Notes under the pieces: model-generated
Databases searched by the model: none
The model's input: the letters and a program-made list of their open reading frames with translations, nothing else
Told to the model about the DNA's origin: nothing
Position numbers and translations under genes: made by a program
Shown here: positions 53,962 to 64,000 of the stretch, piece by piece
Position numbering within the stretch: position 1 is the first letter of the stretch
How the letters are laid out: every line of letters starts with the position of its first letter
Origin: Pleurocapsa sp. PCC 7319
GTDB lineage: Bacteria > Cyanobacteriota > Cyanobacteriia > Cyanobacteriales > Xenococcaceae
Length of the DNA stretch: 64,000 nt
Direction of reading: 5' to 3'
Assembly: GCF_000332195.1 (NCBI RefSeq)
Contig: NZ_KB235919.1
Location: 273,038 to 337,037, forward strand

Positions 53962-54894
53962 TTACCAATAAAGTTGCCAACTTCCTTCTCCAAAGATACC
54001 GTGTCCCTGTAGAGTAATGCGAGCTTCTTTTGGCTGAGCTTTGATTGGCGCAACTTGATGATAGTGTAAACCTGAATGCAGTATCATATTTCCGGTTTTG
54101 TAGGGATGAAGTTTTTTGGTTCTAGACTTAAACAAATTCATTATTGAACTTAGATATTTCTGTTTTTCAAAATTAGAAATCCAGTTCCGAAGCACTTCTT
54201 GAATATAAGGATCGTGAGTTATGATGAATTCAAATTCGCGAATTTCGGCATCAGTCAAATCAGGATGATACAAGTCAAACAAGAGAATAATTCTGGTAAA
54301 GTCACTATTATTCCAAGCCTCGTGAACAAAACTATCGTCAAAAATCAATAGTTTACCTTCAACAAGCTTTCTAGATTTATGTGCGACACAAAGCTCGCAG
54401 TTAGCTGGAACTATTAATGGAAGTTGGCAACGCAAAATAAAATTAAATGGACCACAATGAGGAGGAATATGGCTTCTTTTGGTTAAAGCTGAAAAATGTA
54501 CCATTCCTGTAATTCGAGGAATAGACTGAAGAATTTTTGTCGTTACAGGGCATAAGTCACAATTTTCTTGAAACTTTTTACCGTATAGAGAAAAAGGAAA
54601 AGTCTGCCAATCATCACCATCATAATTACCAATAGAATCAGGAAAAAAGTCTTTAGGTTCTTGGTAGGGAATAAATCTATTTTTATCTGCCAAACAAGAG
54701 TCTAATAACTCTTGTTGAATCAATTGATATTTTTCTTCCAGTTGTTGAACCCATGCGAAATTTTGCGGTTCGTACCAAGGTTGAGCTGCTAAACCCGGTA
54801 TGTAGACGTTGGTTGGTCTTTGAAAAGGTTCTTGGGAACGTAATAAAGGTTCTACTTTGGTAAAAACTTTGAACAAGTATTCGATTCGATTCAT
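53962..54894 (-). CDS. Asp/Asn beta-hydroxylase-type dioxygenase with C-terminal extension
   Basis: A 310-residue protein. The core (about residues 85-220) has the aspartyl/asparaginyl beta-hydroxylase motifs: HIPPHCGPFNFILRCQLPL (first metal His), DDSFVHEAWNNSDFTRIILL (second His and the 2-oxoglutarate Arg). It shares FGKKxQENCxLCPxTT with the protein at 57513. An extra C-terminal part (about 250-310: HPYKTGNMILHSGLHYHQVA, ARITLQGHG) resembles the end of another Fe/2OG dioxygenase-like domain. The likely target is a peptide side chain, given the neighbouring RiPP precursor with several Asn; this is inference. Last gene of a three-gene operon, 20 bp after the GNAT gene. Confidence 0.85.
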   Translation of the reverse strand: MNRIEYLFKVFTKVEPLLRSQEPFQRPTNVYIPGLAAQPWYEPQNFAWVQQLEEKYQLIQQELLDSCLADKNRFIPYQEPKDFFPDSIGNYDGDDWQTFPFSLYGKKFQENCDLCPVTTKILQSIPRITGMVHFSALTKRSHIPPHCGPFNFILRCQLPLIVPANCELCVAHKSRKLVEGKLLIFDDSFVHEAWNNSDFTRIILLFDLYHPDLTDAEIREFEFIITHDPYIQEVLRNWISNFEKQKYLSSIMNLFKSRTKKLHPYKTGNMILHSGLHYHQVAPIKAQPKEARITLQGHGIFGEGSWQLYW

Positions 54895-54914
54895 AATTAT
54901 TTAGAGTATAAAAG

Positions 54915-55847
54915 TTATCGATTTGCCATACTTTCAACACATCTATGCAAACCTAATTCTTGATCGGAAAACAGCAACTTTGACGCTCCTTTAGTCTCTT
55001 GGAGATATATTGAGTATGGTTTCATGTGTTTTTTGGCAAAATTAACCATAGAAGTATGTTCTAGGGGAATAGTCCAAATGCCGAAGGGAATGTTAGCTGC
55101 TGCTTGAAGCTGAACTGCTTTGATGTAAAGGAACGTAATTCGACCCAGCTTTTGCAAATCTGGTCGGATATAGCTACAGCTATAGCGGATAGTATCAGGA
55201 GCAGTACGATGATTAATTAGCCAACCAACAACCTGTCCTTTATAACGCAGTCCCACGCTGTTGATAGGCTCTAAACCTTCTTCATATTTAAATGGGATTA
55301 AATCTGGATGAATCCATGACTTTACTTCTTGTTCCTGTATCAAAGATCGTTCTCTAGGTGTAATTTTTACCCAAGGAAAAATAGAGTAGGAGGCAGGCAG
55401 TTGCCAACGACGACGCATCCAAGGTGCATTGCTCATTTCATGAGTAGATGCTTTGCAGATTACTCTTCGCGGTTGAGGAGACGACCAACCACATTTATCT
55501 AGTAAATGTTCCACAGTAGAAGTAGTCGTTTGACCAGTCGTATAAACAAATTCTACGCTTTTACAACCTTCTAAATATAGTTCCTGTTCTAAACGAGTAA
55601 GTAAAGCGGTACCAAATCCTTGATGACGATAAGCTTGTGCCACGAACAGAGAAAGAACTTGAGCTGATTTATCTGCTTGAGTTTCAGCTATCCCCAAACC
55701 AATTGGTTTTCCTGCAATAGAGATACCTATGGCCACAGTATTCTCATCTGAGCTTATATTTTGTAACCGAGGACGATACGTAGGATAGGTCAAGGGGCTA
55801 TAAAGTAATGCTTCACCAAAAGTAGTGAGACGAGTCAAACTATGCAT
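54915..55847 (-). CDS. Tandem GNAT acetyltransferase
   Basis: A 310-residue protein. The N-terminal GNAT fold shows the acetyl-CoA loop VLSLFVAQAYRHQGFGTALL (Q-x-x-G-x-G). A second, more divergent GNAT-like half (about residues 165-300: NSVGLRYKGQVVGWLINHRT, SYIRPDLQKLGRITFLYIKA) follows. It could acetylate the peptide, an amine or a polyamine. Second in a three-gene operon after the kinase (16 bp). Confidence 0.85.
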   Translation of the reverse strand: MHSLTRLTTFGEALLYSPLTYPTYRPRLQNISSDENTVAIGISIAGKPIGLGIAETQADKSAQVLSLFVAQAYRHQGFGTALLTRLEQELYLEGCKSVEFVYTTGQTTTSTVEHLLDKCGWSSPQPRRVICKASTHEMSNAPWMRRRWQLPASYSIFPWVKITPRERSLIQEQEVKSWIHPDLIPFKYEEGLEPINSVGLRYKGQVVGWLINHRTAPDTIRYSCSYIRPDLQKLGRITFLYIKAVQLQAAANIPFGIWTIPLEHTSMVNFAKKHMKPYSIYLQETKGASKLLFSDQELGLHRCVESMANR

Positions 55848-55863
55848 AATTATTAATGATGTA

Positions 55864-56682
55864 TTAATCTCTAAGTAGCTTTTCGATGATGAATAACAAA
55901 GATTTTTGCTCTTGCTCGGATGAGCAATAGCTTAACCATGCTGCTGCTTCTGGCACTAACCAAGGTTGAATCTGTTTCCAAGTAATCTGATTCAGTTTCA
56001 AATAACGTTGGAGATATACAGCGCAAAATAAAATTCGCAGAAACAACCAAAAAAATGAAGTTAAATTAGTTGGTTCTTCACCAACAAGCAGCATTAATAA
56101 AGTTAGAGCTACATCAGCCTGAGAATTACCCTGTAAAGCATTAGACCAGTCAATAACAGTGGATTTAGAAGCTGAAAGTATAATATTACCAGGATGAAAA
56201 TCTCCGTGACAGAGCGATCGCCCCGTAGGCAATTGGTCGAGTAGATCTAATATTGTTTGTTGTTTGTTTTCTGGTAATACTTGTGCTGCTCTAATTTGCA
56301 GTTTTCTTTGCTTTTGCAAAGAGAGAAGTTTGGGAACATGACATCGGTGAATTTCGGTTTGTAGCTCTGCCAGTAATCTGGCGAAATGGAATATTTTCCA
56401 AGGTTTTAAACGAATATTATTCAACATAGAATCGCCCTCAATCCGTTCGATGACGATTCCCTTCTGACCATCTACTTCGGTAATGCCTTCTACTTCAGGA
56501 ACAGCTAACCCTGCTTGATATACAATTCGACTAACTTGGGTTTCATATTCTATCCAAGCTGTCGAAATATTCGGATAAAATAATTTAATTACTTGATTAT
56601 TTCTCCAACAGAATACCTGCGCCGACTTTCCTACTCCAATTTTTTTACCTATATTCATTATACAAATACTGCTATGACTCAT
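55864..56682 (-). CDS. APH-type phosphotransferase
   Basis: A protein of 272 residues, or 264 from the Met at 56658. Kinase-like fold of the aminoglycoside phosphotransferase/choline kinase group: glycine-rich IGVGKSAQVFCW, Lys in VIKLFYP, catalytic CHGDFHPGNIIL, metal Asp in VIDWSNA. Substrates range from antibiotics to small metabolites, and proteins are possible. Heads the operon with the GNAT and hydroxylase genes; a tailoring or self-protection role is possible but unproven. Confidence 0.88.
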   Translation of the reverse strand: MSHSSICIMNIGKKIGVGKSAQVFCWRNNQVIKLFYPNISTAWIEYETQVSRIVYQAGLAVPEVEGITEVDGQKGIVIERIEGDSMLNNIRLKPWKIFHFARLLAELQTEIHRCHVPKLLSLQKQRKLQIRAAQVLPENKQQTILDLLDQLPTGRSLCHGDFHPGNIILSASKSTVIDWSNALQGNSQADVALTLLMLLVGEEPTNLTSFFWLFLRILFCAVYLQRYLKLNQITWKQIQPWLVPEAAAWLSYCSSEQEQKSLLFIIEKLLRD

Positions 56683-56869
56683 AAAGATGTTTTATGGCGT
56701 TTGTTTGATTTGTTAGGTACATCTTATGTTGTGGTAAATTCAAGATTTGTAGAGACGTGCGCTGGTTCGTCCATACAGGATTAAGAAAATAATGAAAGTA
56801 ATAATGTCAGATTTAATATTAATAATGTGTTAATAAAACCCTGACCTAAATAGTGCGATAAATAATAAA

Positions 56870-56920
56870 AAATAATGTATCTACATGGTTTTTAAAACCT
56901 ACTGTGTAGATACATTATTT
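56870..56920 (-). terminator. Long-stem terminator after the Nif11-type precursor
   Basis: A perfect 16-base stem (AAATAATGTATCTACA with its complement) closes a 19-base loop that itself can form GGTTT/AAACC. It starts 7 bp after the stop codon of the precursor on the minus strand, and the minus-strand right flank reads TTTTATTATTT. It should separate the precursor transcript from the kinase operon. Confidence 0.8.
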
Positions 56921-56926
56921 AGTTTT

Positions 56927-57196
56927 TTAATGGTTATGAGTACCACCATTAAAACTAGTTTTATTTCCTTTACCACCACCAGCAACAGATTCTAACTGCT
57001 CTTCAGAAAGCTCTTCTCCAAAAGAAAGCTGCTTTTCTTGCATTACACTAAGTAGTTCTTCTTCGGTAAACTCATAACCTTTTTCTGAGGCAATAGTTAA
57101 GATAGCTTCTGGTCCTTCTGCTGATTGTAGTTGCTGACGTAAAACAGCATCAGTTTTAGAAGTTTCGATCATTGTACGTACTGATTCAATTGACAT
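56927..57196 (-). CDS. Nif11-type RiPP precursor peptide
   Basis: An 89-residue protein. Leader: MSIESVRTMIETSKTDAVLR, GPEAILTIASEKGYEFTEEE, then the acidic helix and LSEEQLESVAGG. Cleavage after Gly-Gly would leave the core GKGNKTSFNGGTHNH (15 residues; Asn 3, Gly 4, His 2, Thr 2, Ser 1, no Cys). The leader is typical of Nif11-class precursors. The core cannot form lanthionines; its Asn and other residues are possible targets of the two Asp/Asn hydroxylase-type proteins in the flanking operons. GAGAG lies 6-7 bases before the ATG. Hairpins isolate it on both sides. Confidence 0.87.
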   Translation of the reverse strand: MSIESVRTMIETSKTDAVLRQQLQSAEGPEAILTIASEKGYEFTEEELLSVMQEKQLSFGEELSEEQLESVAGGGKGNKTSFNGGTHNH

Positions 57197-57512
57197 TTTT
57201 TCTCTCTGAATAATTTACTTTTGGTTTATTTATTTCAACAATTAAATAATAGCAATTGCAGATAAGGTAATCTAGTAATATTTTTAATATAAAATGTACT
57301 TTTTTATTGTTTCGATATCCAAATAACGTACAAAAAAATATCTTAGAGCAAAATAAATAAGGAGTTCTAAGATATTTTTTATAAAGCAGATACTTTTTTA
57401 AAAGTAGTAATAATTTCAACAAAAATTATTATATCTAATATATTTTATGGCAAGTTATATTATTCGAGTATATTTTTATCATTACCAGCAACAAAATTAA
57501 GCTTAAAAAATG
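57197..57512. other. AT-rich leader region of the precursor
   Basis: About 315 bases upstream of the precursor ATG without a gene. It contains the strong hairpin at 57333-57380 and presumably an internal promoter downstream of it. A 78-residue ORF across it is a low-complexity chance frame. Confidence 0.6.
57333..57380 (-). terminator. Hairpin between the hydroxylase gene and the precursor
   Basis: A 14-base perfect stem (AAAAAATATCTTAG/CTAAGATATTTTTT) with a 20-base loop, ending in a U-run on the minus-strand transcript. It lies about 133 bp after the stop of the 57513-58064 gene and 136 bp before the precursor ATG, so it can terminate or attenuate the upstream operon. Confidence 0.75.
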
Positions 57513-58064
57513 CTACATATGGCTCATGACATCGATTAGTGGCTTGGGACAATTAAGCTGAGATAAATCTGTCAACTTGTGACCTGGTTTTAAGAAATCG
57601 ATTAACAAGACAATGCGATCGCTCTTGCCCAAATTCCAGGCTTCATGTTCTAAAGTATCATCAAAAATAAAACACTTACCTTCTTGCCAACTTTTTGTTT
57701 GACTACCAACCCGCAAAGCGCAACGATCTGGCACAATTAGACCTAAATGACAACGAAGTACCCTATCAGAACATCCAACATGAGGAGTAATCTTAGTACC
57801 TGATGCTAGACGGGAAAATCCAACTGTAGTTATGCCTGGGATGGTTTCGGTCAGTCGTGTTGTTTGGGGGCATAATTGGCAATTTTCTTGAAGTTTCTTG
57901 CCAAATGAATACAAGCCAAATATTTTCCAACCTTGATTATATATATTTTTTTCAGGCCAATCTATCAATTTTTCGGATTTTAACTGCTCAAATTCTTGTT
58001 TGATTAATAACCAATTTGTTTCCAAGACTGAAAGAAAGGGAAAATTACTTGATTCAAAAAACAT
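57513..58064 (-). CDS. Asp/Asn beta-hydroxylase-type dioxygenase (short form)
   Basis: A 183-residue protein, essentially only the hydroxylase core: FGKKLQENCQLCPQTTR, then KITPHVGCSDRVLRCHLGLI (first metal His), FDDTLEHEAWNLGKSDRIVL (second His and the 2OG-binding Arg). It lacks the N-terminal 80 and C-terminal 60 residues present in the protein at 53962. The likely reaction is beta-hydroxylation of Asp or Asn in a peptide. Last gene of the five-gene operon upstream of the precursor, 44 bp after the 2OG oxygenase gene. Confidence 0.88.
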   Translation of the reverse strand: MFFESSNFPFLSVLETNWLLIKQEFEQLKSEKLIDWPEKNIYNQGWKIFGLYSFGKKLQENCQLCPQTTRLTETIPGITTVGFSRLASGTKITPHVGCSDRVLRCHLGLIVPDRCALRVGSQTKSWQEGKCFIFDDTLEHEAWNLGKSDRIVLLIDFLKPGHKLTDLSQLNCPKPLIDVMSHM

Positions 58065-58108
58065 AATTATTTTTCTGATGATGAGAGTATTTCTGTTTTT
58101 ACCTATTG

Positions 58109-58717
58109 CTACACTGCATAGGCTTTAGACTCAATCTGAAATTGGGGAATCTGCTGATATTGAGTTAAATCGCCAACATACTGTTCGCAGACTAAACTAA
58201 TACGAGACTGCGAAGTTCTAACTTGATTAACCGAATGGGTTAAACTGCCATGAAAGTATAGTAGGGTGTTTTCTTGGGGTTGAATTTTTCCTACCTGGTT
58301 TCCTTTTCTAGTTAAAATTAATTCTCCACCTTCCATATCTGATGGCACGCGAACATAGAGGACACTGACCATTTTGGGAATAACAGTCTGGTGACAATAT
58401 TGAGCAATACTACAGTCAACGTGGGGCTGGACATATGCTCTTGATTGCACAATCAGAGGATTGAGGTAAAAGACATTGCATTGGGGCATTAATGCTGTTT
58501 GTAAATAAGGCTGAAGAAAAGGAAACTGTTTGGCAACCATCTCAATTCCTGATCGCTGGAATACAATAGAAAACCCCTGAGTTTCTGCAAAATGCTCGCT
58601 TAATTTACTCTCTGCTAGATAAGGCGAAGCAAGTATTTCTTGTTCTAGGGATTTCAAATAATTAGGATTAAAGGCTTTTGAACGTAGAGAATAATATTTG
58701 TTTTGAGTTATTTCCAT
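58109..58717 (-). CDS. 2-oxoglutarate/Fe(II) oxygenase (prolyl-4-hydroxylase/PKHD type)
   Basis: A 202-residue protein. HxD in VQPHVDCSIAQYCHQ, GGELILTRKGN, distal His in FHGSLTHSVNQV and Arg in SRISLVCEQY form the Fe(II) and 2-oxoglutarate site. The fold differs from that of the two beta-hydroxylase-type proteins, so it should act elsewhere on the substrate. Its ATG directly abuts the stop of the MBL gene upstream (TAA-ATG), indicating coupled translation. Confidence 0.87.
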   Translation of the reverse strand: MEITQNKYYSLRSKAFNPNYLKSLEQEILASPYLAESKLSEHFAETQGFSIVFQRSGIEMVAKQFPFLQPYLQTALMPQCNVFYLNPLIVQSRAYVQPHVDCSIAQYCHQTVIPKMVSVLYVRVPSDMEGGELILTRKGNQVGKIQPQENTLLYFHGSLTHSVNQVRTSQSRISLVCEQYVGDLTQYQQIPQFQIESKAYAV

Positions 58718-60223
58718 TTATTTGGCACAGCTAGTTGCTAGATAGGGAAGAGTATCAACAGAAGTACCTATCGAAGTGGTTTTGGTAACTCTAGTGAGGG
58801 TTTTACCAATAGCGATCATGGTTGTTTTGCAGGCTGGCTCAATTGCTTTACTCTCATTAACTTGACCCCATTTTTCAATTTCATAGTCGCGAGCCTTTTG
58901 ATATGCTTCTTTATAAGGAAATTTTTCCTGTAGAGGTTCTTTTATGAAAACACTGGAGCTATCATTAGGCTGAACGATACCATAGGGAGTTGCTTGATAT
59001 AGCTTATGAAAACGACGGTAGTAGCCACCCATCTGTACATAATCCCAACCTTTAATTCCTTGGATTAGACTATAGAATCTAGAAGCTGCGATCGCTGTAA
59101 AGACATTAGCCAAAGGATTACGTCCCACTTGGCATTGAATTTGCTCTTCACTAAAATCAAAATGCCAAGTCTGAGAACCATCAGGAAATACAATTTCTAG
59201 CTGATAAACTGCTTGCCAGTGGCAATATTCTAAAAATAAAGAGTTCTTATTCTGATTTATAAACTGAAGTAAATTAACGCACACTTCTTGCTTAATCGCT
59301 GTCTTCAGTTCGTCGAGATTATACTGCTCTAAATTATCATCGATTAGTCGGCTATCGACATTAACAGGACAGAAATTTAAGCTGTCGAGATCGTCTTCTA
59401 CCATGTTTACAAAGTCAGAGTGTTGAGGTAGGCGATCGCATTGACCCTGCTCGATGGTAACAACATCTCCTGGATTAAAAGCAAATACTTGCTGGGAAAT
59501 TTCGGGACGAGTTTGCTGCACATCCCGACAGAATTGTTCGCGTGTTACAGGAAAAACAATCTGGTTTAACCAAGATGAACCGTTGATAAATTTGAACCCA
59601 TTCGCTCCTGGTGCGATCGCTCTAGGTTGAACTAAATTAACTAGCTTCAATAAGTCACCATAAGCCGAGTAAGGGAAAGAAATACTTTGATTATCTTGAT
59701 ATTGAGTCTCTAGCATTGGTTGCCAGCTAGCCAATAAAAAGTCAACCCCACCATAGCGAGATTTGACCTTGCCTACTGTTTCTGGACTGACTACAGAATC
59801 AACTTGATTCCAAAATACTCCATCATTGTCGGCAATAACCATTCCGAATTCGGGGACGCGATTTTCCGAACGAGTTGTTAGTAAACGAGTCGAACCAATG
59901 CGAACTTCAGTCCAATCTCCGAGAAAATAGATATTTTGATAGCCTAATTTACGCAGACAACTTTTCAGACACTTATCCCTGGGAATCAGGACATCAATAT
60001 GTTTGGGCAAACAAGCCAGAGAACGAATATCAAAATGATCTGTATGTTGATGAGAAATAACTAGAGTATCAAATTTAGGAAGGCGATCGATAATTACTTT
60101 TCTTTGGGGACAAATGTCTTCTATGTCTTCACAATGAGAATCCCATAACACCGGATCGATTAAAATTTTGCAGTCTTGGGTTTCTACAAAAAGAGAAGCA
60201 TGACCAATTAGTTGGATTTGCAT
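58718..60223 (-). CDS. MBL-fold metallohydrolase-like protein, paralogue B
   Basis: A 501-residue protein. N-terminal 280 residues: UlaG-like MBL fold (MQIQLIGHASLFVETQDCKI, HxHxDH in SHQHTDHFD, TTRSENRVPEFGMVIADNDG, APGANGFKF). The C-terminal 200 residues are an additional domain (FLEYCHWQAVYQLEIVFPDG, WDYVQMGGYYRRFHKLYQAT) with no motif I can name. It is nearly colinear with paralogue A upstream. The MBL part could hydrolyse, or with iron oxidise, a substrate. Middle of the five-gene operon. Confidence 0.88.
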   Translation of the reverse strand: MQIQLIGHASLFVETQDCKILIDPVLWDSHCEDIEDICPQRKVIIDRLPKFDTLVISHQHTDHFDIRSLACLPKHIDVLIPRDKCLKSCLRKLGYQNIYFLGDWTEVRIGSTRLLTTRSENRVPEFGMVIADNDGVFWNQVDSVVSPETVGKVKSRYGGVDFLLASWQPMLETQYQDNQSISFPYSAYGDLLKLVNLVQPRAIAPGANGFKFINGSSWLNQIVFPVTREQFCRDVQQTRPEISQQVFAFNPGDVVTIEQGQCDRLPQHSDFVNMVEDDLDSLNFCPVNVDSRLIDDNLEQYNLDELKTAIKQEVCVNLLQFINQNKNSLFLEYCHWQAVYQLEIVFPDGSQTWHFDFSEEQIQCQVGRNPLANVFTAIAASRFYSLIQGIKGWDYVQMGGYYRRFHKLYQATPYGIVQPNDSSSVFIKEPLQEKFPYKEAYQKARDYEIEKWGQVNESKAIEPACKTTMIAIGKTLTRVTKTTSIGTSVDTLPYLATSCAK

Positions 60224-60238
60224 AGTTGTTTTTAGTGA

Positions 60239-61756
60239 TTAATTTACTAGAGAAAGATGCTGAGAATTACCATTAGAATTGGAATTTTGAGCTAAATCTG
60301 GTTTCAGTTTTGCCACTCTAGTTAAAGTCTTGCCAATAATCACTATCGTCGTTGTGTTTTCTGGTTCGATTTCCTGGCTGTTCTCAACTTGACCCCATTT
60401 TTTAGTTTCATAGTTGCGAACTCGCTCGTAAACGCGATCGTAAGGAAACTTGGCATATAGAGGTTGTGGAAATGAAAAATTGGAACTTTCATTAATTGAT
60501 TTAACGATACCGTAGGGTGTTGCTTGGTATAATTTGTGAAAACTACGGTAGAAACCGCCCAAATAAGCATAATCCCAGCCCTTAGTTCCTTGCATAATGC
60601 CATATAGGCTAGAAGCAGTGATCGCGTTAAATAAGTTAGCCAAAGGATTGCGCCCCACTCGGCATTGTATTTGCTTCTCGCTAAAATCGAAATGCCAAAT
60701 CTGAGAACCATCTGGAAAAACTACTTCTAGCTGATAAATTACTTGCCAATGGCAATATTCCAAAAATAAAGAATCTTGATTCTGATTAAAAAACTGAGTT
60801 AAACTAAGGCAAACCTCTTGCTTGATCGCCTTTTTCATCTCATGTAAGTCGTGTCCGTCTAGATTATCGTCAATCAGTCGGCTATCAACATTAACAGGAC
60901 AAAAATCTAAAAGTTCGCGATCATCTTCTACCATCCTTACAAAGTCTGAGCTTTGGGTTAAGTGAGTGCATTCACCTCGATCAATAGTAATGATATCTCC
61001 AGGTTCAAAAGTAAATACTTTATCGGCAATTTCAGGACAGGTTCGCTTGGCATCGCGACAAAACTGTTCTCGCGTTACGGGGAAAACAATTTGATTTAAC
61101 CAAGCTGAACTATTAATAAACTTATAACCATTAGCCCCTGGCGCGATCGCTTTGGGTTTGGTCAAGCTAATGAGTTTTAGTGTTTTGCTATATTCAGAGA
61201 AAGGAAATGATAGATTATCGTTATGCTGATACTGCGTTTCTAACATTGGTTGCCAACCAGCTAATAGAAAGTCGATCTGGGGATAGCGAGACTTAACCTC
61301 GCGAATCGTGTCTGGGTTTATCCTCGAATCAACTTGATTCCAAAACACCCCATCTTCGTCAGCAAAGATCATGCCATATTCAGGGACACGATTTTCCGAA
61401 CGAGTAGTTAGTAGATGAGTTGCACCAAGACGAACTTCACTCCAATCCCTTAAAGTGTAAATATTTTGATAGCCTAATTTACGTAGACAAGTCTCGATTA
61501 ACTTATCCTTGGGAATAAAGACATCAACGTGTTTGGGCAAATAAGCTAGAGAGCGAAGATCGAAGTGATCGATATGTTTATGGGAGATGACTAAAGTATC
61601 GAATTCAGGCAGGTGATTGAGAGCTAGTTCTCGCTTGGGGCAAACATCTTGCATCTCTTCGACTATGGCAGGGTTGAAGAGTAAAGGATCCATCAAAATT
61701 TTGCAATCTTGTGTTTCCACAAAAAGAGAAGCATGACCAATTAGGTGAATTTTCAT
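60239..61756 (-). CDS. MBL-fold metallohydrolase-like protein, paralogue A
   Basis: A 505-residue paralogue of the next gene, alike along its whole length. N-terminal HASLFVETQDCKILMDPLLF, metal motif SHKHIDHFD, TTRSENRVPEYGMIFADEDG; C-terminal domain FLEYCHWQVIYQLEVVFPDG and GWDYAYLGGFYRSFHKLYQA. The two probably work as a heteromer or on sequential steps. 15 bp before paralogue B, 36 bp after the HTH gene. Confidence 0.88.
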   Translation of the reverse strand: MKIHLIGHASLFVETQDCKILMDPLLFNPAIVEEMQDVCPKRELALNHLPEFDTLVISHKHIDHFDLRSLAYLPKHVDVFIPKDKLIETCLRKLGYQNIYTLRDWSEVRLGATHLLTTRSENRVPEYGMIFADEDGVFWNQVDSRINPDTIREVKSRYPQIDFLLAGWQPMLETQYQHNDNLSFPFSEYSKTLKLISLTKPKAIAPGANGYKFINSSAWLNQIVFPVTREQFCRDAKRTCPEIADKVFTFEPGDIITIDRGECTHLTQSSDFVRMVEDDRELLDFCPVNVDSRLIDDNLDGHDLHEMKKAIKQEVCLSLTQFFNQNQDSLFLEYCHWQVIYQLEVVFPDGSQIWHFDFSEKQIQCRVGRNPLANLFNAITASSLYGIMQGTKGWDYAYLGGFYRSFHKLYQATPYGIVKSINESSNFSFPQPLYAKFPYDRVYERVRNYETKKWGQVENSQEIEPENTTTIVIIGKTLTRVAKLKPDLAQNSNSNGNSQHLSLVN

Positions 61757-61791
61757 AGTTGACTTTTAGTGTTGATTAATTTTGGTATTCA

Positions 61792-62328
61792 TTAAACTGT
61801 GTAGCGAGACGAGTAATTTTCCCTTGATGAACTCAGAGCAAAATTCTGGTAATTGCTTGAGTGTCGTTCAAAGAATTTACCATAAAATTTTTGTTGTCGA
61901 AATCTATTTTGTGATTCGCTTGCTAAAAAAATAGACTTAGAACTAGGCACAAGATCTAGTAACAAATTCTTATTTTCTCTAACCATTCCCATTGCTAATA
62001 ATCTCAGTAAATCGGCATAACCAAGATATGTTTCATACTGTTGTTGCTTGTCTGGGGGGATTTTATCGAATTCAACTCCTTTACCCCAACGATGAACAGT
62101 ATTTGGCTTTATCTTTAATACTTTAGCAATCAGGTTAATACATTTTTCTCGATAGCCATGTTCGGATTCTAGTAAGACGATCTCCTTTTCTGTGTAGCGT
62201 GGTCTGCCATTTTCTCTAACATCTTCTAATCCAAACAATCGCCGGCAAAAAATTCTGGGATGCATACTCTGTTCTGAAGCGATACAGGTCTTGATAATTT
62301 TGCGATCGATATTTGTGGTAGAAAACAT
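61792..62328 (-). CDS. HTH DNA-binding protein heading the RiPP operon
   Basis: A 178-residue basic protein. A region about 60-95 looks like an HTH (EKCINLIAKVLKIKPNTVHR followed by WGKG), and it starts with an RRLFGLEDVRENGRPRYTEK block. I do not recognise a named family; the pattern is common in cyanobacterial putative transcriptional regulators near metabolite loci. The tail is Ser/Arg/Tyr-rich. It is divergent from the NHLP precursor gene across 389 bp and could control both sides. Confidence 0.7.
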   Translation of the reverse strand: MFSTTNIDRKIIKTCIASEQSMHPRIFCRRLFGLEDVRENGRPRYTEKEIVLLESEHGYREKCINLIAKVLKIKPNTVHRWGKGVEFDKIPPDKQQQYETYLGYADLLRLLAMGMVRENKNLLLDLVPSSKSIFLASESQNRFRQQKFYGKFFERHSSNYQNFALSSSRENYSSRYTV

Positions 62329-62717: not shown

Positions 62718-63083
62718 ATGTCAGAACAAAATACTCTCAATCGCAACGAACTTGAAGCGAGAATCATTGCTAAAGCTTGGCAGGATGAAGCTTTTAAGCA
62801 AGAGCTATTAAATAACCCTAAAGCCGTATTCAGTCAAGAAATGGGTCAAAGTATTCCCGATGAAATTGAAATTCAAGTAGTAGAAGAAAATCCTACTACT
62901 CTGTACATGGTACTACCTACAAAGCCCACTATTGCCGATGAAGAAGAAGTTTCTCAAGAACAATTAGAAGCTGTAGCTGGAGGTGGTTTTATGGATGATT
63001 TTGTTGACGGCTTCACACACACAATTCATAAAGGATTAAAAGGATGCGGAGAAGTGCTTATTAACGGTGAGATGCCAGATTGA
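62718..63083 (+). CDS. NHLP-type (nitrile hydratase-like leader) RiPP precursor 1
   Basis: A 121-residue precursor. Leader about 90 residues: ELEARIIAKAWQDEAFKQEL, LNNPKAVFSQEMGQSIPDEI, QVVEENPTTLYMVLP and a QEQLEAVAGG double-Gly site. The core after it (about 31 residues from GFMDDFVDGFTHTIHKG to MPD) has two Thr and one Cys (KGCGEV), enough for a single thioether ring. AGGA precedes the ATG. Paralogue of the next gene; probably co-transcribed toward the LanM-like gene. Confidence 0.9.
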   Translation: MSEQNTLNRNELEARIIAKAWQDEAFKQELLNNPKAVFSQEMGQSIPDEIEIQVVEENPTTLYMVLPTKPTIADEEEVSQEQLEAVAGGGFMDDFVDGFTHTIHKGLKGCGEVLINGEMPD

Positions 63084-63901: not shown

Positions 63902-64000
63902 ATGAAAATTTCTCAAGCAGATTTGCTCGCAATTGTCGTACAAGCTAGTACAATTGATGAGCGATTGAGCGATCGCTTTATTCCCGACCCAGAACAAATA
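63902..64000 (+). CDS. Start of a probable LanM-type lanthipeptide synthetase (3' partial)
   Basis: Only 33 codons are in the window: MKISQADLLAIVVQASTIDE followed by RLSDRFIPDPEQI. I recall this pattern (short helix then R-x-x-x-x-F-I-P-D) from the N-termini of cyanobacterial LanM proteins, but so little sequence is not proof. Its place 318 bp after two Cys-, Ser- and Thr-containing NHLP precursors supports the call. The gene continues past 64000. Confidence 0.55.
   Translation, partial: MKISQADLLAIVVQASTIDERLSDRFIPDPEQI

Follow-up and report, generated by a model that had tools for sequence, protein, structure and literature searches.

A Nif11-type precursor locus of Pleurocapsa sp. PCC 7319 with hydroxylase, GNAT and twin MBL genes, the latter of a RiPP-linked MBL-SCP2 family that seems akin to CmlA-type diiron oxygenases

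The DNA considered here, referred to as the window, is a stretch of 64,000 nucleotides from the 7.39-Mb genome of Pleurocapsa sp. PCC 7319, located at positions 273038-337037 of a 525-kb contig. Between 53962 and 62328 it carries a run of nine genes, all on the minus strand, which encode, in the order of transcription, a 178-aa protein, two paralogous proteins of metallo-beta-lactamase fold (MBL2 and MBL1), a 2-oxoglutarate (2OG)-Fe(II) oxygenase, an enzyme of the aspartyl/asparaginyl beta-hydroxylase type (AspH1), a Nif11-type precursor of a ribosomally synthesized and post-translationally modified peptide (RiPP), an APH-family kinase, a GNAT protein and a second enzyme of the AspH type (AspH2). 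We give an even chance to the reading that the locus is a pathway for a hydroxylated, Lys-acylated Nif11 peptide making use of a CmlA-like MBL family; the twin MBL genes are the most informative of the locus. The nine open reading frames (ORFs) of the initial annotation were all recovered in place. Pfam and NCBIfam searches, by which gene families were assigned, bore out its Nif11-type precursor, its three oxygenases, its twin MBL proteins and its APH and GNAT genes (Table 1), while the helix-turn-helix label of the 178-aa protein found no confirmation (best match E 0.08). Intergenic gaps within the run measure 0-44 bp, save those on either side of the precursor gene, which reach 316 bp (before it) and 244 bp (after it). 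As the genes share one strand and only the two gaps flanking the precursor are long, the nine genes may form one transcription unit; the minus-strand placement stands and the firm division into two separate operons was dropped.

The 89-aa precursor consists of a Nif11 leader ending in VAGG, followed by a putative 15-residue core, GKGNKTSFNGGTHNH. It has the Nif11 domain, the GG-type leader end and the short variable core of a RiPP precursor. If the core begins right after VAGG, Lys occupies its position 2. The core is devoid of Cys and therefore no lanthionine ring can be formed on the Nif11 peptide; judging from its composition, the residues open to modification could be Lys, Asn, His, Ser and Thr. 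We compared the five precursors encoded with 2OG and MBL genes, the core starts being our own assignment. Asp or Asn is present in the core of both precursors with an AspH gene in the cluster and in none of the three without it, and Lys is found among the first three core residues of the four precursors with a GNAT gene and not in the single one without it (0/1). The pattern matches direct modification, and five precursors being too few, it can be taken as a hint only.

To place the MBL proteins, a profile built from 13 relatives (profile A1) was used. It matched 24 of the 388 genomes of the order and 10 of the 386 genomes of a phylum sample, the genome of the window being included in these counts. 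Three of the 24 relatives are distant (G077, G471, G643); the other 21, which include that of G578 with its gene cut by the contig end, are full-length or nearly so. A gene for a Nif11 or NHLP precursor lies no more than 10 kb from the MBL gene in 17 of the 21 genomes (G000, G558, G024, G035, G042, G044, G090, G091, G107, G111, G160, G561, G389, G589, G503, G622, G656). The 23 other genomes contain 194 precursor matches (123 Nif11, 71 NHLP) over about 164 Mb, from which a hand estimate that ignores precursor clustering gives an expectation of about 0.026 per random gene; for 20 genomes this amounts to about 0.5, compared with 16 observed. By this rough estimate, linkage of the MBL family to precursors is more than chance.

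Two of the ten matching plasmid records cover at least 80% of MBL1, and both are precursor-linked. In plasmid p057_G of Nostoc sp. C057, the MBL gene lies beside genes for Nif11, NHLP, a TOMM-type protein, a SagB-type dehydrogenase and exporters; this plasmid is closely like locus L084 and its independence is uncertain. In pPg_03 of Pseudanabaena galeata, the MBL relative is accompanied by another MBL protein, two 2OG oxygenases, Nif11 and LanM. The plasmid-borne relatives are annotated as 'MBL fold metallo-hydrolase' or, in pPg_03, as 'hypothetical protein'. When MBL1 was searched against wider genome contigs, just four weak, partial matches of Verrucomicrobia type were obtained; viral contigs gave no match, and neither did a megablast of the region against plasmids.

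The family keeps varied company. MBL clusters include a peptide arginase of type UPF0489 (L046, and L087 by similarity), YcaO and ThcOx (L084), two PoyD-type epimerases (L047), Trp halogenase (L043, L090, L091, with weaker similarity in L046 and L087), and LanM or DUF4135 (L044, L050, L051, L052, L089, L092). Such diversity of RiPP enzymes around it points to the MBL protein being an enzyme with a reaction of its own, combined with many RiPP chemistries. Near MBL relatives there are also proteins of about 600, 390 and 370 aa without Pfam or NCBIfam match, the first two kinds of which recur in several loci. As a separate observation, Trp is the C-terminal residue in 14 of 20 listed Nif11 precursors encoded close to MBL-family genes, often as KxKW or xGW; the set comes from L043, L046, L051, L052, L085, L087, L089, L090 and L092, and a Trp-halogenase-like gene is found in some of these clusters.

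The putative metal site of MBL1 includes H58, H60, D62, H63, E120 and D142, with N208 where His is usual. We aligned 21 sequences of the family (from 20 genomes, two being those of the window and that of G578 being omitted) and the three distant relatives. H58, H60, D62, H63 and D142 are invariant in all 21 and in the three distant ones, so that the HxHxDH motif of CmlA-type oxygenases is present throughout; E120 is conserved as Glu in all 21 and replaced by Asp in the distant three. Among sequences of the PDB, MBL1 alone matched FrsH (8a90) at 5.1e-7, NAPE-PLD at 2.2e-5, SaxA at 0.001 and CmlA at 0.0023; the family profile matched FrsH at 5.5e-7, CmlA at 4.6e-6, NAPE-PLD at 1.3e-5 and SaxA at 0.0046. 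According to PMC7794379, FrsH and CmlA belong to the non-heme diiron monooxygenases and hydroxylate amino acids bound to a carrier.

In five loci, the MBL-SCP2 protein is accompanied by a second, distinct protein in which the CmlA ligand motifs are retained, namely HxHxDH, the Glu of a GEQ motif, Asp and the last His (L050:16212-17678, L051:1532-2989, L052:1082-2539, L085:15686-17140, L089:15747-17201), and in a sixth with a fragment comprising its last part only (L092:14-196). CmlA was matched by it at 1e-10 (L050) and 1.9e-9 (L085). To judge by these ligands, the CmlA-like proteins are apparent CmlA-type diiron oxygenases of RiPP clusters; they sit in Nif11 clusters with a 2OG gene, and L050 also has FkbM methyltransferase domains. 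The GEQ Glu aligns with E377 of CmlA (Asp in entry 5kil, titled as the E377D mutant). When the 21 MBL sequences were aligned with four CmlA-like sequences by hhalign (94.6%, 6.8e-8), E120 was paired with the GEQ Glu, which places a Glu at E377 by profile alignment through this linking family. In 84 pairwise alignments the two residues were paired in 19, off by one in 26, off by nine in 14 and unaligned in 25, and raw MAFFT also placed E120 inconsistently. Equivalence of E120 to CmlA E377 is supported but not certain.

The C-terminal domain of the MBL family was modelled apart (24 sequences, predicted local distance difference test (pLDDT) 79.4). Its best fold matches were SCP2 folds (9.3e-6); the 20 best rows of the Foldseek search were all SCP2, and alkylsulfatases followed with weaker values (from 5e-3). 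The domain had no sequence match in the PDB, and Pfam SCP2 was reached at E 0.058 at best and in 4 of 24 members; with so weak a sequence signal, the predicted SCP2-like nature of the domain rests on the fold search. MBL1 shares with CmlA and FrsH the MBL fold, HxHxDH, the Glu aligned with E377 through the linking family and the conserved Asp (D142). We consider it more likely, from the sequence comparisons, that the MBL proteins are O2-using dinuclear-iron enzymes akin to CmlA and FrsH than ordinary hydrolases. A more specific proposal, to which we assign somewhat less than an even chance, is that the MBL-SCP2 proteins form a RiPP-dedicated branch of the CmlA/FrsH diiron enzymes, with a new metal site poor in His and an SCP2-like tail that binds lipid or peptide, which oxidises ribosomal peptides on Nif11 or NHLP leaders. 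Such a branch would then serve as a portable tailoring module in clusters with 2OG, AspH and GNAT enzymes, peptide arginase, YcaO/dehydrogenase, PoyD epimerase, Trp halogenase or LanM. The three distant relatives (L053:10364-12196, L086:8267-10024, L094:9358-11145) have an extra C-terminal region and adjoin Trp-halogenase-like and CmlA-like genes; that of L053, the only one scanned for it, matched the PpiC-related peptide-maturation family TIGR04500. They perhaps belong to another peptide-maturation system.

Conservation of the gene set was surveyed in 23 other loci, over as much as 10 kb on each side of the MBL gene, depending on the sequence available (blastp E < 1e-5). Locus L045 (genome G044, of another family of the order) has MBL-2OG-Nif11-GNAT-AspH in the order and on the strand of the window, its AspH matching PF05118 at 9.6e-21. 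The order is MBL-2OG-Nif11-Nif11-GNAT-C39 in L042 and MBL-2OG-Nif11-flavin adenine dinucleotide (FAD) oxidase-Trp halogenase-C39 in L043, and in L044 MBL and 2OG occur with NHLP precursors, a subtilase and LanM. MBL and 2OG adjoin in all five loci of this sub-family. As to whether the neighbours are conserved together, on which the initial annotation had made its proposal depend, the core is kept (MBL-2OG-Nif11, joined by GNAT-AspH in L045), and the APH kinase and the 178-aa protein are not.

The best PDB match of both AspH1 and AspH2 is AspH (5apa; 1.1e-25 and 1.3e-28, respectively), and each of them matched 11 solved sequences, all titled aspartyl/asparaginyl beta-hydroxylase. The HxG motif and a second His align with AspH in both (HVG and EHE in AspH1); these histidines we take to be metal ligands. 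Lipid hydroxylases of the LpxO/OlsC type were rejected as the nearest reading of AspH1 and AspH2: their NCBIfam matches stayed well under the cut-off, and AspH is favoured by the PDB matches as well as by HxG. The two enzymes have PF05118, both histidines and HxG in common with AspH and differ from it in being bacterial and in belonging to a RiPP operon, where the substrate would be the Nif11 core. Beta-hydroxylation of a peptide side chain has a RiPP precedent in divamide-type Asp beta-hydroxylation by DivX, as outlined in a review; that system differs in being a lanthipeptide with another precursor class and other cluster content. In the 2OG enzyme, H99-x-D101 and H161 are invariant among five aligned sequences. 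Its relatives (E <= 1e-15) are widespread, in 185 of the 388 genomes of the order, and no precursor was recognised by eye in the 3.6-kb surroundings of 11 2OG loci (L104-L114), among listed ORFs that did not include every short one; the RiPP-linked enzyme looks therefore as if it had been recruited from a widespread enzyme family. MBL adjacency in the five best genomes of the 2OG profile A2 was discounted, as A2 was built from those five. Of the hydroxylation first suggested for this locus, a RiPP locus with several hydroxylases stands, hydroxylation as such being read from the genes.

The GNAT protein has a coenzyme A (CoA)-type RxxGxG loop (RHQGFG, in RHQGFGTA) in its N-terminal domain; a second GNAT half is undetected by Pfam. 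Relatives were found in 54 of 388 genomes (E <= 1e-20). Of 12 GNAT loci, 7 contain, within 3.7-3.9 kb, a Nif11 or NHLP precursor recognised by eye; three of these seven (L115-L117) are the query's own rows, which leaves an independent count of 4 of 9. In two of the other five (L123, L124), an NHLP or Nif11 match lies about 1.6 and 2.4 kb off. According to PMC13060382, NpuN (WP_012412981.1) is a tandem GNAT with the CoA loop in its N-terminal domain that acylates core Lys1 in nostolysamide, and NpuN relatives adjoin NHLP or Nif11 precursors. The selidamides (phaeornamide, kamptornamide, nostolysamides) are described as products of NHLP (phaeornamide) or NHLP/Nif11 clusters whose core Lys or Orn is fatty-acylated by a GNAT, in some cases after hydroxylation; the phaeornamide cluster comprises the precursor, the 2OG hydroxylase PhaI and the GNAT PhaN (review). 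Given the RHQGFG loop, the Lys at core position 2, which would be the residue acylated, and the parallel with NpuN as published, selidamide-like Lys acylation is the likeliest role of the GNAT. The acetylation proposed in the initial annotation has to share its place with longer-chain Lys acylation, which is as likely or likelier, GNATs being known beside Nif11 and NHLP precursors (PMC13060382). The initial annotation knew of no described family with such a gene set; its GNAT/2OG part does have a described parallel, in the selidamides. From these the window is set apart by two AspH-type enzymes, the twin MBL proteins, the APH kinase, an operon without arginase and a LanM gene that stands apart.

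In the proposed pathway, the chemistry would be mainly side-chain oxidation and acylation. The Nif11 leader would guide the enzymes to the 15-residue core, where Asn (or His) would be beta-hydroxylated by AspH1 and AspH2. The 2OG enzyme and the MBL proteins, neighbours throughout the sub-family, may act on a shared residue type, perhaps Lys or Arg. Acylation by the GNAT would take place on the Lys that closely follows the leader, in analogy to NpuN and nostolysamide, and the APH kinase may phosphorylate a newly made hydroxyl. Leader removal and export of the product would be the task of the C39 transporter.

Several observations weigh against this proposal. Four of the 21 genomes (G041, G064, G568, G578) and all three distant ones have no precursor gene within 10 kb of their MBL gene; the MBL genes of G568 and G578 lie on contigs of 8.0 and 5.3 kb, and in G041 and G064 a Nif11 row is found elsewhere in the genome beside a 2OG match and an MBL-type match. 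Of the 23 other loci, two have the GNAT and one has AspH, and neither the APH kinase nor the 178-aa protein has a relative in any of them (blastp E < 1e-5). The presence of a 2OG enzyme so common in the order is weak evidence by itself. As for kinship with CmlA and FrsH, MBL1 is without the N-terminal domain of CmlA (its MBL domain starts at residue 1-2), and in place of the last His the family has Asn (16 of 21) or Gln (5 of 21), with Ser in the three distant relatives; it also differs from both enzymes in its SCP2-like tail and in its association with ribosomal precursors instead of a nonribosomal peptide synthetase carrier. The single-sequence search ranks NAPE-PLD and SaxA over CmlA. In the fold search with the MBL1 model, which is of modest quality (pLDDT 69.9, predicted template modelling score 0.72), SaxA came first (6.6e-11), followed by NAPE-PLD (2.4e-10), CmlA (3.3e-10) and FrsH (1.1e-9); with all four matched so closely, the fold cannot separate hydrolase from oxygenase.

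The combination of MBL fold and SCP2-like tail is also the layout of alkylsulfatases, which have Glu at the third ligand place. A hydrolase with an acylated peptide as its substrate has therefore to be considered seriously: the MBL proteins could be zinc hydrolases (deacylase, sulfatase, amidase or leader-processing enzymes) that reach the acylated peptide via the SCP2-like domain, the 2OG and AspH enzymes being then the only oxygenases. The two halves of the SdsA1 layout were matched separately, the match to its SCP2-like domain being weak, and SdsA1 was absent among the best 50 of 655 fold matches of the full-length MBL1 model. From SdsA1, NAPE-PLD and SaxA, with which the MBL fold is shared, MBL1 is separated by its missing last His, its RiPP context and a sequence nearer to FrsH, the best match of all; moreover, the family profile places CmlA before NAPE-PLD and SaxA. 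The family accompanies oxygenases, halogenases and CmlA-like proteins, and a C39 peptidase-transporter, which would already remove the leader, lies within 10 kb in 8 of the 24 loci (two of them partial genes). On balance we regard hydrolysis by the MBL proteins as doubtful.

Unlikely, in our judgement, is that the locus makes a selidamide-type lipopeptide only, in which the 2OG enzyme hydroxylates Lys, the GNAT fatty-acylates it, and the remaining genes have an accessory role or form part of other clusters in the island. The gene content reported for phaeornamide, the reported action of NpuN on core Lys1 and position of its relatives, as well as the Lys at core position 2, agree with this simpler pathway. 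It leaves unaccounted for that AspH and MBL hold their position in L045, and that the MBL family has a precursor close by in 17 of 21 genomes, with this GNAT nearby in only 3 of 24 loci.

Beyond the 5' end of the operon lies a second set of RiPP genes. Two NHLP precursors, the first at 0.4 kb, are followed by LanM at 1.6 kb and then by an IS66-type transposase, an HlyD-type protein, a C39 peptidase-ABC transporter and a second ABC protein. The precursors and LanM, with the transposase behind, represent a separate or a shared lanthipeptide cluster. The initial annotation had noted the absence of LanM, radical SAM, YcaO and peptidase-transporter genes, which is correct inside 53962-62328; LanM and the C39 gene are found just outside. 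Such proximity, together with L044, where MBL and 2OG are joined with NHLP precursors and LanM, could suggest that the Nif11 precursor is served by LanM and C39 in one lanthipeptide island and that the oxygenases tailor NHLP peptides. The Cys-free Nif11 core, on which no ring could be closed, and the position of Nif11 inside the oxygenase gene run both here and in L042, L043 and L045 render this quite improbable. It is very improbable that the operon is no RiPP pathway, with Nif11 in a housekeeping or regulatory role and a small molecule as the product of the enzymes, for although some Nif11 proteins of the same genome are without the GG leader motif, this one has a GG-type leader and TIGR03798, and MBL-precursor linkage is repeated, with C39 exporters in part of the loci. 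Elsewhere in this genome (L054:8083-10095, contig C5), two Nif11 precursors stand beside a 419-aa protein that by eye resembles a radical-SAM maturase.

Table 1. Genes of the Nif11 locus and its surroundings in window coordinates, and proteins near MBL relatives (locus:positions)
Feature	Position	Strand	Family match
178-aa protein	61792..62328	-	no significant family match
MBL2, paralogue of MBL1 (65-67% identity)	60239..61756	-	MBL fold PF13483 5e-7
MBL1, N-terminal MBL fold and predicted SCP2-like C-terminal domain	58718..60223	-	PF13483 3.3e-8
2OG-Fe(II) oxygenase, 202 aa	58109..58717	-	2OG-FeII_Oxy_3 (PF13640) 6e-8
AspH1, aspartyl/asparaginyl beta-hydroxylase type, 183 aa	57513..58064	-	PF05118 (Asp_Arg_Hydrox) 3.9e-49
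Nif11-type RiPP precursor, 89 aa	56927..57196	-	PF07862 1.5e-13; TIGR03798 1.1e-17
APH-family kinase, 272 aa	55864..56682	-	PF01636 1e-16
GNAT, candidate Lys acyltransferase, 310 aa	54915..55847	-	GNAT 1.8e-12
AspH2, AspH type with C-terminal extension of about 100 aa, 310 aa	53962..54894	-	PF05118 5.5e-44 (residues 53-211)
NHLP-type RiPP precursor, 121 aa, divergent from operon	62718..63083	+	TIGR03793 1.1e-31
Second NHLP-like precursor, 110 aa	63251..63583	+	leader very similar to that of 62718-63083 (by eye)
LanM, class II lanthipeptide synthetase, 1094 aa, start in window	63902..64000, continues to 67186	+	TIGR03897 1.6e-301
C39 peptidase-ABC transporter, wholly past window end	72768-75026		family match
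Protein near MBL relative	L050:11411-13252		no family match
Protein near MBL relative	L051:6377-8191		no family match
Protein near MBL relative	L050:13296-14480		no family match
Protein near MBL relative	L047:12854-13963		no family match

The locus had been proposed as a candidate for a new RiPP class. As its GNAT/2OG part resembles the selidamides, the class is not wholly new: it is a Nif11 pathway, with an acylation and 2OG part in common with them. What seems new is the RiPP-linked MBL-SCP2 family and its likely CmlA-type diiron kinship. The literature searched, outside which most subscription papers fell, contained no description of RiPP precursors with an MBL-fold/diiron oxygenase or of a Nif11 set with aspartyl and 2OG hydroxylases. 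The window joins AspH-type hydroxylases to a Nif11 precursor, and the MBL family provides a handle for genome mining, being a conserved 500-aa marker that leads to diverse Nif11 and NHLP clusters. If it is true that the MBL proteins oxidise ribosomal peptides, an oxygenase class hitherto associated with carrier-bound amino acids would extend to encoded, easily redesigned peptides.

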